Part shown: positions 15,918-22,368 of the stretch, in pieces
Layout of the letters: each line of letters opens with the position of its first letter
How positions within the stretch are numbered: position 1 is the first letter of the stretch
Source of the DNA: Pseudomonadota bacterium
GTDB lineage: Bacteria; Pseudomonadota; Gammaproteobacteria; Xanthomonadales; Xanthomonadaceae
Direction of reading: 5' to 3'
DNA: 43,555 nucleotides
NCBI GenBank assembly: GCA_018241125.1
Contig: JAFEEL010000022.1
Location: 1 to 43,555 of the forward strand
The notes under the pieces: generated by a model
Told to the model about the DNA's origin: nothing
Database searches by the model: none
The model's input: only the letters and a program-made list of their open reading frames with translations
Translations under genes and position numbers: made by a program

Positions 15918-17183
15918 CTATCCCAACAGCCCGCGCACCTTGCGCAGCGCCACGATGAAGCGCTCGATCTCCGCGTGCGTGTTGTAAAACGCCAGCGAGG
16001 CGCGGCAGGTGGCGGGTACGCCGAAGTACGCCATCAATGGATGCGCGCAGTGGTGGCCGGAACGTACCGCCACGCCTTCCAGATCGAGCAGCGTGGCAAG
16101 GTCATGCGCGTGCGCGCCCTCGATCAGGAACGACACCACCGCCGCCTTGTCTGGCGCGTTGCCGATGATGCGCAGGCCTTCGATCTTGCGCATCTCCTCG
16201 GTCAGGTGCGCGAGCAGCTCGCCCTCGCGCGCCTGCACGTTGGCCATGCCCAGCGCATCCAGATAATCCACCGCTGCGCCCAGACCGATGAAGCCGGAGA
16301 TGTTGGGCGTGCCGGCTTCGAACTTGTGCGGTGGGTCGTTGAATACCGTGCCTTCAAAGCGCACCTCGCGGATCATCTCTCCGCCACCGAAAAACGGCGG
16401 CATCGCATCTAGGTGTTCGCGTCGCGCCCACAGCGCACCGGTGCCGGTCGGCCCGCACATCTTGTGCCCGGTCAGCGCGTAGAAATCGCAGCCGATGGCG
16501 GGAATGTCCACGGCCAGGTGCGGCAGCGCTTGCGAGCCATCGACCACGGTGATGACGCCGCGCTTGCGTGCGAGCGTGCAGACCTCGTGCACCGGGTTGA
16601 TCGTGCCGAGCACGTTGGAGACGTGGGTGACCCCGAGCAGCTTCACCTCCGGCGTGAGCAGGCGCTCGAGCGCGTTCAGATCCAGTACGCCGTCGGCGCT
16701 GATGTCGGCGACCTTGATCGTCGCGCCGGTGCGCTGGGCGATCAGTTGCCACGGCACGATGTTGGCGTGGTGTTCCATACGCGTGAGCACGATCGCATCG
16801 CCGGCGCGCAGGCGTGGCAGTGCCCACGAATAGGCGACGAGGTTGATCGCCATCGTGGTACCGCTGGTGAACACCAGATCGCGGCGGTGCACGCGCAGGT
16901 GCGCGGCCAGGCGGTCGCGCGCGCCCTCGTAGGATCTGGTCGCCTGCTCGCCGAGCGTGTGCACGGCGCGCGATACGTTGGCGGCGTAGCGGCGGTAGTA
17001 GTCGTCCATCGCCGCGATCACCCGCGCCGGCTTCTGCCCGGTGTTGGCCGAATCGAAATACACCAGCGGCTTGCCGTGGACTTCGCGGTGCAGCAGCGGA
17101 AAATCTTCGCGCACGCGCTGCCAGTCGACGGGCGCCGCAAGGTCTTGCGTCGATGTCGAGATGCCGGGGCCTTCGCCGTTCAT
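15918..17183 (-). CDS. sufS: Cysteine desulfurase SufS
   Basis: SufS (class V PLP enzyme) takes sulfur from cysteine to form a persulfide for Fe-S cluster assembly. In the 421-residue protein the PLP-binding Lys is K241 in LTGHKMCGPT, the PLP Asp is D215 in VVDGSQ, and the catalytic Cys is C379 in RSGHHCAHP. SufS usually hands sulfur to SufE or SufU; neither is in this operon, so the acceptor must be elsewhere. The start ATG at 17183 overlaps the sufD stop. Last gene of the suf operon. Confidence 0.96.
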   Translation of the reverse strand: MNGEGPGISTSTQDLAAPVDWQRVREDFPLLHREVHGKPLVYFDSANTGQKPARVIAAMDDYYRRYAANVSRAVHTLGEQATRSYEGARDRLAAHLRVHRRDLVFTSGTTMAINLVAYSWALPRLRAGDAIVLTRMEHHANIVPWQLIAQRTGATIKVADISADGVLDLNALERLLTPEVKLLGVTHVSNVLGTINPVHEVCTLARKRGVITVVDGSQALPHLAVDIPAIGCDFYALTGHKMCGPTGTGALWARREHLDAMPPFFGGGEMIREVRFEGTVFNDPPHKFEAGTPNISGFIGLGAAVDYLDALGMANVQAREGELLAHLTEEMRKIEGLRIIGNAPDKAAVVSFLIEGAHAHDLATLLDLEGVAVRSGHHCAHPLMAYFGVPATCRASLAFYNTHAEIERFIVALRKVRGLLG

Positions 17184-18433
17184 GCCAGTGCCCCGATGCG
17201 CGCCAGTGCCGCGTCCAATGCCGTGCGCGCCATTTCCAGCAACGTCGGATCGCCCGCGGCCGGCAGCGCCTGCCGGCAGAACGCGCCGATCAACAGCGCG
17301 CGCGCCTGCGCCTGCGGCAACCCGCGCGAGCGCAGGTAGAACAGCGCCTGTTCGTCGAGTTGTCCGACGGTGGCGCCGTGCGCGGCCTTGACCTCGTCGG
17401 CGTGGATCTCCAGTACCGGCTGGGTGTCGATTTCCGCATCCAGCGAGAGCAGCAGGTTCTTGTTCGCCAGCCGCGCATCGCTGCCGTCGGCACCGGGATG
17501 GATGGTGATGCCGCCGTGGAACACCGCGTGTCCGCGATCACCCGCCAGCCCGCGCCACAGCAGGTCGCAGGCGGTGTCGCGGCCGTGGTGCTCGATCCTG
17601 AGGCGGGTGTCGAGATGCCGCACGCCATCGGCGAGCAGCACGCCGTTGGCCAGCAAGTGCGCGCCGTCGCCCTGCAGGCGCACGTTCAGTTCGTGCCGCG
17701 ACAGGCCCGCGCCCAGTTCCAGGTCGAGGCGGCGGTAGCTGGCCGCACCCGCCAGCGTGGCATCGGTATGCGCCAGCGCGCTGGCGGCCGGTGCTTCGTG
17801 CTGGATGCGCAGGTGGCGCAGTTGTGCGCCATCGCCAAGGTCGACCTGCATGCGCGTGTTGGCCAGATGCGCGTGTGCGCCGGCGGCCAGTTGGTGTTCG
17901 ACCACGCTCAACGCCGCACCGGCTTCCAGCGCGATTGTGTGGCGCAGGTGCCAGGCGATATCGCCGTGCGCCGGCGCGCCGAGGAAGACCAGGTGAATCG
18001 GTGTGTCCATGCGGACGCCAGCGGCCGCTTGCAGGAGCACGCCGCTGCCGGCGAGCGCCGCATTGAGGCGGGAAAAAACCGCATCGGCGCCCGCGTGGTG
18101 GTGGGCGCGAAACGCGGCACCGGCAGCGTGCGCTTGCACGAGCACTCGCACGCCAGCCGGGAGCGCTTCGGTGCGCGACAGCGCCGGTTCGTGGCGACCG
18201 TTGACGAATGCGATGCGCGGGGCGGGGATGTGCGCCAGCACGCTGGCGTCGATGGTCGGCGTCGGTGCGGTCGATGGCGCGAAGGCGCGTTCGGCAAGCG
18301 CCGCCAGTGAGGTGTACTTCCACGCTTCCGACTTGCGCGTGGGCAGGCCGTCGCGCAGCACGGCGTCGAGCGCGGCGTGGCGCACCGCGTCGCCGGCAGC
18401 GCCGGCCGTCAGCGAGTCGAGCAGGGCGCTCAT
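17180..18433 (-). CDS. sufD: Fe-S cluster scaffold protein SufD
   Basis: SufD forms the SufBC2D scaffold on which Fe-S clusters are assembled. The 417-residue protein has the family pattern: an Ala-rich N terminus, LPTRKSEAWKYTSLAALAER (about 31-50) and a long beta-helix region ending with the C-terminal signature near KAAHGATVGQLDEQALFYLR. The frame is open to 18472, but the ATG at 18433 is the one that overlaps the sufC stop (ATGA) and fits the family start. It also overlaps sufS at its own end. Cytosolic. Confidence 0.93.
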   Translation of the reverse strand: MSALLDSLTAGAAGDAVRHAALDAVLRDGLPTRKSEAWKYTSLAALAERAFAPSTAPTPTIDASVLAHIPAPRIAFVNGRHEPALSRTEALPAGVRVLVQAHAAGAAFRAHHHAGADAVFSRLNAALAGSGVLLQAAAGVRMDTPIHLVFLGAPAHGDIAWHLRHTIALEAGAALSVVEHQLAAGAHAHLANTRMQVDLGDGAQLRHLRIQHEAPAASALAHTDATLAGAASYRRLDLELGAGLSRHELNVRLQGDGAHLLANGVLLADGVRHLDTRLRIEHHGRDTACDLLWRGLAGDRGHAVFHGGITIHPGADGSDARLANKNLLLSLDAEIDTQPVLEIHADEVKAAHGATVGQLDEQALFYLRSRGLPQAQARALLIGAFCRQALPAAGDPTLLEMARTALDAALARIGALA

Positions 18434-19197
18434 GCGCTGGCCGCCGCCGGCGCCACGCGCTCGCGGATCCACGCATAGCCGTGCTCTTCCAGCGCCAGCG
18501 CAAGCTCCGGGCCGCCGCTTTCGACGATCCGCCCGTCGGCCAGCACGTGCACCACGTCGGGCTTGATGTAATCGAGCAGGCGCTGGTAGTGGGTGATGAC
18601 TACGAACGCGCGATCCGGGCTGCGTAACGCATTCACGCCGTCGGCGACGCTGCGCAGGGCATCGATGTCCAGCCCCGAGTCGGTCTCGTCAAGAATAGCC
18701 AATTTCGGTTCGAGCACGGCGAGCTGGAAGATCTCGTTGCGCTTTTTTTCGCCGCCGGAAAAACCTTCGTTCACGCCGCGATTGAGCAGGTCGTCCTTCA
18801 GGTGCAGCACCTTGAGCTTTTCACGCACGCGCCGCAGGAATTGCATCGAATCCATCTCGGCTTCCCCGCGCGCCTTGCGTTGCGCATTGAACGCCGCGCG
18901 CAGGAAGTAGGTGTTGTTCACGCCCGGTATTTCGACCGGATACTGGAAGGCGAGGAACAGCCCGGCGGCGGCGCGCTGCTCGGGTGCCAGCGCGAGCAGG
19001 TCGCGGCCGTCCAGTTGCGCGCTGCCGGCCGTCACCTCGTAGCCACCGCGCCCGGCCAGCACGTGGCCGAGGGTGGACTTGCCGGCGCCGTTGGGGCCCA
19101 TGATCGCGTGTACCTGCCCGGCCTGCACGTGCAGGTTCAGGCCCTTGAGGATGTCTTTGCCGCCGATGCTGGCGTGCAGGTCGTGGATGTGCAGCAT
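18430..19197 (-). CDS. sufC: SUF ATPase SufC
   Basis: SufC is the ABC-type ATPase of the SufBCD complex and drives the structural changes needed for cluster assembly. The 255-residue protein has Walker A GPNGAGKST near 34-42, signature FSGGEKKRNE near 150-159 with the K/N variation typical of SufC, and Walker B LAILDETDSGLD near 169-180. The ATG at 19197 is taken; the longer frame to 19245 has no similarity. An AGGAAA ribosome site is formed by the end of the upstream nucleotidyltransferase gene, 4 bases of spacer after its stop, so sufC translation is coupled to a gene that is not part of the usual suf set. Confidence 0.95.
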   Translation of the reverse strand: MLHIHDLHASIGGKDILKGLNLHVQAGQVHAIMGPNGAGKSTLGHVLAGRGGYEVTAGSAQLDGRDLLALAPEQRAAAGLFLAFQYPVEIPGVNNTYFLRAAFNAQRKARGEAEMDSMQFLRRVREKLKVLHLKDDLLNRGVNEGFSGGEKKRNEIFQLAVLEPKLAILDETDSGLDIDALRSVADGVNALRSPDRAFVVITHYQRLLDYIKPDVVHVLADGRIVESGGPELALALEEHGYAWIRERVAPAAASA

Positions 19198-19201
19198 GTG
19201 G

Positions 19202-19654
19202 TCATTTCCTGTCTTTTCTGCGCTCGAATTCTTCAAGATCGCCAATGTCCTTCGATCGGCCGGACGCGCGCTTGTTGATAAGCAAATCGTCCAACGCGAT
19301 CAGTGGAATCCTGACTCCACCCAAGTTCGCGTAGATACGGCGTGGGTAGCAGTCGGCGAACTCGCGACCGGAAACCCAGGTCAACAAGTCGATACGGTTC
19401 GGAGCGCGCCCCATCATCAACACCGCTTTTGGATCGAGCAGATCGTCTTTCGTGAACTCGCCGAAACCGAATTCCAGCAGCGCCGAGAGTGCCTTGTCCG
19501 CATTTGCGGGGGATCGTTCGAGCCAGAAGTCGAGATCCTCGGTCATGCGTACGAAACCGTGCGCGTTGACCGCGACCCCGCCGACCACCATGTAGCGAAC
19601 TTCATGCGCGTCGAGCAATCGAATGAAATCTTTGAAATCCTGGATCAATTCCAT
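19202..19654 (-). CDS. Nucleotidyltransferase (MNT/DUF6036-like) inserted in suf operon
   Basis: A 150-residue protein with the polymerase-beta-type nucleotidyltransferase fold: MVVGGVAVNAHGFVRMTEDL (residues 22-41) with GG at 25-26 and Asp at 40 and 42 as metal ligands, a third Asp at 89 (NRIDLL), and a C-terminal INKRASGRSKDIGDLEEF (126-143) typical of small nucleotidyltransferases in toxin-antitoxin-like or defence-like pairs. No KNTase substrate domain is present. The ATG at 19654 has AGGA upstream inside the preceding small gene, which it overlaps by 53 bases. Its stop lies 4 bases before sufC. Not known from standard suf operons; function unknown. Confidence 0.85.
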   Translation of the reverse strand: MELIQDFKDFIRLLDAHEVRYMVVGGVAVNAHGFVRMTEDLDFWLERSPANADKALSALLEFGFGEFTKDDLLDPKAVLMMGRAPNRIDLLTWVSGREFADCYPRRIYANLGGVRIPLIALDDLLINKRASGRSKDIGDLEEFERRKDRK

Positions 19655-19831
19655 GATGGTCCTCGATGATCCTCATGCGCAGCCGCAAGAACAATTCCAG
19701 TCGTTCGTCGACGCTGAAGCGCGCGTACTCGTCCACCAGACTGGGTTCTTCGCCGATGCGGAACTTGCGCGCGATGTGTTCGACGCGATCGGTGCCGAGT
19801 TCCGGCACAACGTGGATGGCATGACGGCCGT

Positions 19832-19835
<4 letters not shown>
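19602..19835 (-). CDS. 77-residue partner of the nucleotidyltransferase
   Basis: A small protein whose ATG overlaps the sufB stop (ATGA) and whose 3' end overlaps the nucleotidyltransferase start by 53 bases. Visible: a conserved-looking [20 protein letters not shown] (21-40), a Leu/Arg-rich helix (45-57) and a C terminus [14 protein letters not shown] recall small proteins of similar length and C terminus that precede nucleotidyltransferases of this type, which supports a two-gene module, but this is memory and not a search result. In frame with no other candidate gene, and too well placed to be a shadow. Confidence 0.65.
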
Positions 19836-21274
<1,439 letters not shown>

Positions 21275-21276
21275 GC

Positions 21277-21744
21277 TCACGCCGTGGTCACCTGCAAGGG
21301 GATGGACTTGTGCGCGGCCTGCCGTCGCGGGCGCGCGTTCGTGGGCGGGGCGAGCATCTGCGCCAGTGACACCCCGCGCAGTGCCTCGGCGACCACCTCG
21401 TTCACGCGCCGCCAGTTGGCGCGCACACCGCAGTGATCTTGAATCTGGCAGTCGCCATCGTGGAGGCTGCATTCGGTCATGCCCAGCGGGCCTTCGATGG
21501 CCTCGACGACGGCGAACAGACTGATCGCAGCAGCCGGTCGCGCCAGCCGATACCCGCCGTTGGCGCCGCGGAAGGCCTCGACCAACCCCGCTTGCGCCAG
21601 TGATTTCAGCAGCTTGCTCACCGTCGGCGCCTCCAGGTGCGCGCGCTCGGCCAGTTCGCTGGCGCTGTGCACGCGCTGCGGGTCGGCCGCGAGCAAGGTC
21701 AGCACGAGACTGGCGTAGTCGGTGAGCTTGGTGACGCGGAGCAT
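21277..21744 (-). CDS. Rrf2-family SUF regulator
   Basis: The 155-residue Rrf2/IscR-type transcription factor heads the suf operon. An N-terminal winged helix-turn-helix (about 25-65, [20 protein letters not shown]) is followed by three Cys at 92, 99 and 105 ([15 protein letters not shown]), the likely Fe-S ligands that sense cluster supply. It belongs to the regulator type found in front of sufB in Xanthomonas and relatives. Probably represses its own operon when clusters are plentiful. The ATG at 21744 follows a short leader from the promoter at 21786-21814. Confidence 0.93.
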
Positions 21745-21785
21745 GGCGGCAGGCCGTTTGCCGGGGTCGCTGAATCAGGACTGAA

Positions 21786-21814
21786 ATTGTACCTTTTTGC
21801 TCTCGCGGCCACAA
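21786..21814 (-). promoter_or_regulatory. Sigma-70-type promoter of the suf operon
   Basis: On the reverse strand TTGTGG (21814-21809), 17 bases, TACAAT (21791-21786). This is a good match to the consensus, 42 bases upstream of the regulator start. An Fe-S regulator site would be expected to overlap it; I could not pick one out with confidence. Confidence 0.65.
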
Positions 21815-21882
21815 CCAGCGTGCCGTGTACTTGCGCGGCGCGTGCGAACGGCGACAATGCGCGTCTTCGCAACGAGGTGCGC

Positions 21883-22368
21883 ATGGCCGGCAAGATCCAG
21901 GTTCGCCATTCCAAGATCCACGGCAACGGCATGTTCGCCATCGCCGATATCCCCGCCGGTACCCGGTTGATCGAATACAAGGGCCTGCGGATGACCCACG
22001 CGCAGGCCGACCGCCGCTACGACGGCAACACCGAGGGCGGGCACACGTTCCTGTTCACCCTCAACGATCGTTACATCATCGACGCCAACACCGATGGCAA
22101 CGACGCGCGCTGGATCAACCACGGTTGCGAGCCGAACTGCGAGGCGGTGCTGGAAGAGGCGCCCGGGCGCGACCGTCGGCGCGATCGGGTGTTCATCGAG
22201 GCCAAACGTGCAATCAAGACTGGCGAGGAGCTGACCTACAACTACGGCATCACCTTGACCGAACGCCAGACCCCACGCCTGAAAGCGATCTGGGCCTGCC
22301 GCTGCGGCGCAGGCAATTGCACCGGCACGATGCTGCAACCCAAGCGCGGGCGTCAACGAGTCGATTAG
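21883..22368 (+). CDS. SET-domain protein lysine methyltransferase-like protein
   Basis: A 161-residue SET-domain protein. Motifs: [20 protein letters not shown] (10-29), NHGCEPNC at 79-86, GEELTYNYG at 114-122, and a post-SET zinc motif with Cys at 139, 141 and 146 (CRCGAGNC). All elements for SAM-dependent lysine methylation are present, so it is probably active. Bacterial SET proteins have diverse targets; the target here is unknown. ATG at 21883 after GAGG. Divergent from the suf regulator with 138 bases between. Its TAG stop is immediately followed by the five-hairpin element. Confidence 0.92.

Follow-up and report, generated by a model that had tools for sequence, protein, structure and literature searches.

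A Toxin–Antitoxin-Like Nucleotidyltransferase Gene Pair Located between sufB and sufC in Xanthomonadales

Introduction

Why does an operon for iron–sulfur (Fe-S) cluster assembly harbor a gene for a nucleotidyltransferase (NTase)? This question is raised by contig JAFEEL010000022.1 of the Xanthomonadaceae assembly GCA_018241125.1, of which positions 1 to 43,555 (hereafter, the window) were analyzed. Here, sufB and sufC are separated by a gene for a 77-residue protein, which we term the partner and regard as a candidate antitoxin, and by a gene for a 150-residue NTase, the candidate toxin. Toxin–antitoxin modules are usually treated as free-standing operons or as cargo of mobile elements. The pair described here comprises an unusually small partner and is threaded into an essential-cofactor operon with almost no spare DNA. 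We propose, with moderate rather than high confidence, that it is an exchangeable toxin–antitoxin-like cassette, which hitchhikes in suf by means of translational coupling and is not a factor of Fe-S assembly.

Results

The Pair Fits the sufB–sufC Junction to the Base

All genes of this junction lie on the minus strand. The stop codon of sufB (19832-19834) overlaps the ATG of the partner gene (19833-19835) in the form of ATGA (ATCGGATGAACG). The partner gene (19602..19835) in turn overlaps the NTase gene (19202..19654) by 53 bases (19602..19654), which encode MELIQDFK... in one frame and HGIDPGFQR... in the other, and the NTase stop is followed, after four bases (19198-19201), by the ATG of sufC. 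The joints given in the initial annotation were confirmed to the base. By eye, ribosome-site-like stretches are found in the sufB end (AAGGAG), before the NTase ATG (GAGG) and in the end of the NTase gene (AGGAAA). The 3′-end of sufB (19832..19852; CTGGAAGGAGCGATCGGATGA), which combines the Shine–Dalgarno-like AAGGAG with ATGA, is the presumed coupling site. Elsewhere, the overlap between partner and NTase genes measures 47-59 bases (L084, L023 and L006) or about 17 bases in the type B copies L008 and L010 (types are described below).

Four genomes of the window's genus preserve the NTase frame, with ratios of nonsynonymous to synonymous substitution rates (dN/dS) of 0.06-0.11 for the NTase and 0.05-0.43 for the partner outside the overlap, the corresponding values being 0.08-0.14 (sufC) and 0.07-0.22 (sufB). 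Several of the genome pairs compared show high, partly saturated dS. The kept frame at low dN/dS, together with the 23 genomes that hold a pair between sufB and sufC, argues against a chance arrangement.

The NTase Retains Predicted Catalytic Residues and Resembles MenT1

In line with the NTases of DUF6036 and DUF2204, the window protein scores above both Pfam gathering cut-offs (DUF6036, PF19502: 27.1 versus 23.6 bits; DUF2204: 22.8 versus 20.3). It stays under the cut-off for AbiEii (DUF1814/AbiEii; 19.2 versus 22.5 bits), and its AbiEii match in PADLOC is weak (E 0.0065). DUF6036 scores vary among relatives, amounting to 31.7 for L006, 23.3 for P0004 and 16.2 for L008. When a profile of 12 homologues was compared with the PDB, the MenT1 structure 8an4 was the top match (E 3.6e-5), followed by lincosamide resistance proteins and TM1012 (E 0.04-0.2).

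Active NTases of the pol-beta type are marked by G-[GA], then D-x-D, and then a third acidic residue. By its sequence, the window NTase would qualify as such an enzyme. It carries G25-G26, with G25 kept in 34 of 34 aligned homologues, and R36-x-T38-x-D40, the three named residues being likewise invariant (34/34). D42 is kept in 32 of 34, position 89 (D89 in the window) is acidic in all 34, and K128, D136 and D139 are kept in all 33 homologues with letters there. A lack of the catalytic DxD in homologues, which the initial annotation had named as evidence against a module, was not found, since DxD is present in 32 of the 34.

According to two reports (PMC10435456, PMC11375011), the conserved active-site residues of the toxin MenT1 are T39, D41, K137 and D152, with T39, adjacent to R37 and F38, serving as phosphoacceptor; MenA1, a protein of 68 residues with no apparent DNA-binding domain, induces the auto-phosphorylation of MenT1. 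The window pair is alike in several respects. It consists of an NTase and a short partner whose gene comes first, as in rv0078B-rv0078A (menA1-menT1), R-x-T-x-D is spaced as in MenT1, the T/D/K/D set is the same in kind and order, with K and D equated by their order and not by structural alignment, and no PDB entry matches the NTase profile better than 8an4. Unlike MenT1, the 150-residue NTase belongs to DUF6036 and falls short of the AbiEii threshold, no similarity between its partner and MenA1 could be detected despite similar size and gene order, and the pair is embedded in an operon. Judged by these likenesses, the pair most likely is a toxin–antitoxin system that works like MenAT1. Given a partner with no detectable MenA1 similarity and a toxicity that is predicted from sequence, we do not assign it to MenAT.

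Two further systems were compared. AbiE (AbiEi/AbiEii), a type IV toxin–antitoxin system, shares the NTase toxin superfamily and the weak PADLOC match with the window NTase, whose partner differs in having 77 residues. HEPN/MNT is likewise small and made up of two genes, one of them for a minimal NTase, but the window pair has no HEPN-sized partner.

The Partner Is a Short Protein That Accompanies the NTase at Nearly All Loci

Searches of Pfam, NCBIfam, PADLOC and PHROGs returned nothing for the partner at E ≤ 1. Its family alignment, termed A2, displays Y, W or H and, some residues on, an invariant Arg (R45). In type A partners and in several relatives outside suf, the gene overlap additionally encodes a C-terminal stretch of Gln-Arg or Glu-Arg. 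In the PDB, the A2 profile hit designed repeat proteins and antibodies; these hits were judged spurious. An upstream open reading frame (ORF) overlaps or abuts the NTase gene in 41 of 42 loci, the remaining locus (L100) lying at a contig edge. Among these loci, 14 partners trained the partner model; the divergent partners of L097, L124, L101 and L165-L167 were assigned by position and reading, and that of L164 by reading. Two small, adjacent and co-directional genes that occur together in unrelated contexts correspond to the generic gene layout of toxin–antitoxin systems.

HEPN proteins carry the motif R-x4-6-H, and 60-84 residues are short for a HEPN domain. No HEPN match was obtained for the partners scanned, and the R-x4-H of the window's partner is not conserved in its A2 relatives. 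Membership in HEPN/MNT was rejected on partner size and on the unconserved motif. The same observations bear on a reversal of roles, with the NTase as antitoxin, like MntA, and the small protein as toxin. It draws on the HEPN/MNT NTase, which adenylylates and thereby silences the toxin (PMC7641770). Besides the size of the partners (60-84 residues) and the loss of R-x4-H in relatives, the short-first gene order, as in menA1-menT1, speaks against it. Moreover, the NTase is broken with the partner frame open in five of 19 loci outside suf, although the longer gene is likelier to be hit in any case. We consider reversed roles very unlikely.

The Pair Is Optional at suf

The small gene and the NTase gene were found between sufB and sufC, on the same strand, in 23 genomes from three families of the window's order. 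In contrast to the initial annotation, which had held the two genes to be unknown from suf, the pair thus recurs in this operon. Of 395 genomes sampled from the window's family, 16 contain a strong NTase homologue (E under 1e-60), all 16 between sufB and sufC; this search gave 20 matches, of which four were weak (E about 1e-21 to 1e-23) and located outside suf. In two other families of the order, the pair was present in suf of three of 10 and four of nine genomes, respectively. Homologues of the order that were not seen in suf are L097, L100 and L102, the first two near contig edges. L022 holds an incomplete copy that follows sufB where the contig ends. With 16 of 395 genomes of the family, the pair is not a regular constituent of the suf operons of its lineage. 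Within one genus, L154 has the pair, whereas L076, a close neighbor by SufC, does not. Hence, the pair is optional at suf. Remnants of it were not detected at E 1e-3 in 60 junctions of non-carriers; as the window's two proteins served as queries, divergent remnants could be missed.

Like Pairs Occur in Unrelated Loci

The pair was also found at 16 loci outside the order (L023, L084, L087, L089, L119-L126 and L164-L167), each with a small ORF directly upstream of the NTase gene, so that the initial annotation's question of whether the pair is always found in suf operons is answered in the negative. No suf genes were seen within 1-3 kb on each side of these 16 loci, or within less at contig ends. 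On the Geminocystis plasmid pGM02 (L084), the two genes, overlapping by 47 bases, are situated between hsdS and hsdR. This type I restriction locus also holds a gene for a VapC family toxin and a helix-turn-helix gene between hsdS and hsdR. In L120, the pair lies between pstC-type and pstA-type phosphate-transport genes, in L023 a broken NTase copy directly precedes ispH, and in L165 and L167 valS-like and ilvD-like genes are located upstream, as judged by reading alone.

At large, strong homologues are rare: they were found in eight of 369 genomes of the class sample, own genome aside (E under 1e-30), and in four of 397 other genomes of the phylum sample (E under 1e-20). Seventeen plasmid records matched the NTase, all under 60% identity, of which six were inspected. 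Phages yielded no match at E 0.01, and no relative was confirmed in viral_contigs. A phage or mobile origin was rejected on these phage and viral negatives and on plasmid identities that all stay below 60%. The locus counts omit two strong G562 copies and eleven plasmid matches, and one homologue search gave 236 matches, with coordinates for part of them.

Small genes in Spirosoma and Fibrella, which precede longer NTases, and in Cupriavidus are unlike the partner, and these three loci stand outside all counts. In the Spirosoma and Fibrella plasmids (L085, L086), an NTase of this kind begins a protein some 630 residues long, whose gene is preceded by a small gene of another kind.

NTase Subtypes Do Not Track the suf Tree

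An NTase tree of 34 rows was calculated, leaving out the broken or partial copies L022, L023, L089, L125 and L126 as well as L164-L167; its bootstrap values are rough. Type A (support 99/98) comprises NTases from the window's genus, g40, two genera of family f3 and one genus of family f11. Type B comprises g16, g28, g46 and g51 together with (84/86) two f11 genera, with L101 on a long branch, and type C consists of a lone NTase on a long branch, from the f3 genus g66. Two genomes of g66 carry types A and C, and two f11 genera that are sisters by SufB (97/93) carry type A and type B, respectively.

In approximately unbiased (AU) tests on the NTase, a single clade of the suf NTases of the window's own family (f1) was rejected (p-AU 0.0005), and grouping of the f11 rows gave 0.035. 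Grouping of the own family's type A rows was also rejected (0.005), and on SufB a type A clade was rejected (p 1.8e-6), while family f1 as one clade was not (p 0.62); the p-values concerning type A are optimistic, because this type was named after the NTase tree had been seen. The subtypes at the sufB–sufC junction thus do not track the suf or family tree. We also considered that types A and B had been inserted independently; as the NTase tree does not force this view, we claim exchange, and not separate origins.

These data also bear on the pair as a domesticated accessory of Fe-S assembly or a suf regulator, captured once in the order's ancestor, mostly lost since, and tuning sufC translation or modifying a component. 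Such a role would be consistent with a position and strand shared by 23 genomes from three families, with strong purifying selection and intact frames at 23 of 23 suf loci, and with all suf rows of the NTase tree falling on one side of a branch (52/72). On the other hand, the pair is missing from most sampled relatives, including L076 beside the carrier L154, a like pair occurs in unrelated settings, and the subtypes are at odds with the family and SufB tree. Being rare in the family and present elsewhere, the pair is not, as a first choice, an Fe-S factor; we regard this role as unlikely. Likewise, the initial annotation's idea that the pair might tie cluster supply to the modification of RNA or protein found no support, as the pair also occurs in phosphate-transport and restriction loci and is not present in close relatives. 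Its alternative suggestion, a toxin–antitoxin-type module using suf as an expression site, is supported by the loci outside suf, by the conserved catalytic residues and by dispensability.

The sufB–sufC Junction Also Accepts Other Cargo

Junctions of 60 non-carriers of the window's own family, picked by genus, were compared. Forty-three had gaps under 300 bases ("empty") and 17 contained other genes, which is not a frequency, since genera holding the pair were over-sampled. The other cargo includes LprI-like, ACT-domain, Kelch and TonB_C-like genes (e.g., L031, L065, L067 and L081). A lipoprotein-like family with no Pfam match is also among it (L032 and L049 were scanned; L058 and L059 are alike by reading).

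The sufB end GGATGA was found in 30 of 40 occupied versus one of 43 empty junctions (Fisher 9e-13, uncorrected for shared ancestry), namely in 16 of 23 pair carriers and 14 of 17 junctions with other cargo. As all empties are from the own family, it is to be noted that 13 of the 16 pair carriers of this family share this end. An ORF begins at the A of the ATGA in all 14 cargo junctions with GGATGA (11 by automatic pick, three from lists), and the partner begins there in 14 of 16 pair carriers with GGATGA; in L094 and L096, a short ORF starts at this A and the partner later. The sequence GGAAGG just upstream was present at similar shares in 29 of 43 empty, 10 of 17 cargo and 16 of 23 pair junctions, and is therefore background rather than an enriched feature. 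Conserved codons of sufB thus often supply a ribosome-site-like stretch, to which a single base change adds an ATGA start; this is the simplest account of the repeated use of the junction.

The NTase frame is intact at 23 of 23 suf loci versus 14 of 19 loci elsewhere (p 0.014), which is suggestive of lock-in by coupling to suf. The pair could also be a neutral passenger or an anti-phage module at a junction that simply tolerates coupled genes, with a function unrelated to its retention in the operon. The other cargo in 17 of the 60 sampled pair-less junctions and the cyanobacterial copy in a restriction locus agree with this possibility, which is compatible with a hitchhiking cassette and denies the benefit of lock-in alone. 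The intact frames in suf as opposed to breaks elsewhere hint weakly at such a benefit, and we consider a neutral passenger or anti-phage module quite unlikely.

Gene Order and Expression Signals of the Window

The suf genes of the window all lie on the minus strand. sufB (19832..21274; TIGR01980/NF008773) encodes 480 residues from the ATG at 21274, the searches having used a stretch one codon longer, up to 21277. It is preceded by the gene for an Rrf2-type suf regulator (21277..21744; TIGR02944 suf_reg_Xantho, 4.8e-47). Downstream of the pair follow sufC (18430..19197; ATG at 19197, four bases past the NTase stop; TIGR01978), sufD (17180..18472; TIGR01981), which overlaps sufC, and sufS (15918..17183; TIGR01979). 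The third-position G+C content is 0.64 and 0.70 in the partner/NTase pair versus 0.84-0.89 in sufB, sufC, sufD and sufS. No sigma-70-like promoter was found across positions 18300-22100, and the two terminator-like sites in this region are no excess over shuffled sequences (mean 3.0); one transcript is therefore likely. At E 0.001, neither partner nor NTase had a further match in the own genome. In another genome (L020:4224-4509), we observed a seemingly non-coding stretch of nearly 300 bases between sufC and sufD, which is not present in the window.

Discussion

Taken together, we favor a toxin–antitoxin-like cassette that is carried along by suf. By analogy to MenT1, the NTase may transfer nucleotides to RNA, namely to tRNA 3′-ends. 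The small protein would bind the NTase, keep it inactive and possibly provoke the modification of T38. Ribosomes that terminate on sufB are envisaged to re-initiate on the antitoxin gene, next on the toxin gene and then on sufC. By this sequential re-initiation, the cassette would be co-expressed with Fe-S assembly and the antitoxin would be made first. Moreover, it would be hard to lose by frameshift or nonsense mutation, since such breaks would be polar on sufC. In this way, the cassette may ride on an operon that the cell cannot easily spare.

Several observations weigh against this proposal. D42 is replaced by Gly in two suf-embedded copies of different families, L098 and L160, the frames of which are open, and hence some suf copies may be inactive; such copies would fit a frame that is retained with its activity lost. 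No match between the partner and MenA1 was obtained up to E 10, either with the A2 profile or with P0003. In the MenT1 reports, the T39A mutant was still toxic and the other three mutants were not (PMC10435456, PMC11375011), so that T38 is silent on toxicity itself. A literature search, with subscription papers mostly outside its coverage, found no biochemistry of DUF6036. Of the 23 suf carriers, nine have a partner gene that begins elsewhere than at an ATGA overlapping the sufB stop; tight coupling is thus common and not universal. Counts over related genomes lack phylogenetic independence, and some of the broken copies outside suf may be assembly errors (L089 is a complete plasmid). Finally, since all suf rows fall on the same side of one branch, the pair may have entered suf once, with swaps thereafter.

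Tentatively, we extend the cassette proposal to the junction itself. The 3′-end of sufB, with its conserved Leu-Glu-Gly codons, which often read GGAAGG, and a GGN-TGA one change away from GGATGA, could act as a translational socket that is reused by selfish or accessory cassettes. Without a visible integrase, at least three NTase toxin–antitoxin subtypes might have been exchanged between families at this site, probably via recombination in the suf genes on either side, and then locked in by polarity on Fe-S assembly. This extension is possible, yet we would not count on it.

What is new is the suf setting and its recurrence, and not the type of enzyme. A literature search, in which subscription papers were mostly outside coverage, retrieved no description of the pair inside suf, nor one that joins "suf operon" and "nucleotidyltransferase". 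If the socket reading is true, it would point to an operon-hitchhiking way of life for toxin–antitoxin modules. The relatives include carriers as well as genomes in which this junction is empty or holds a swapped version, which renders two questions testable: how promoterless modules persist on chromosomes, and whether their coupling to an important operon guards against decay. In addition, DUF6036 NTases with a short partner, a conserved family, gain a concrete biochemical hypothesis.
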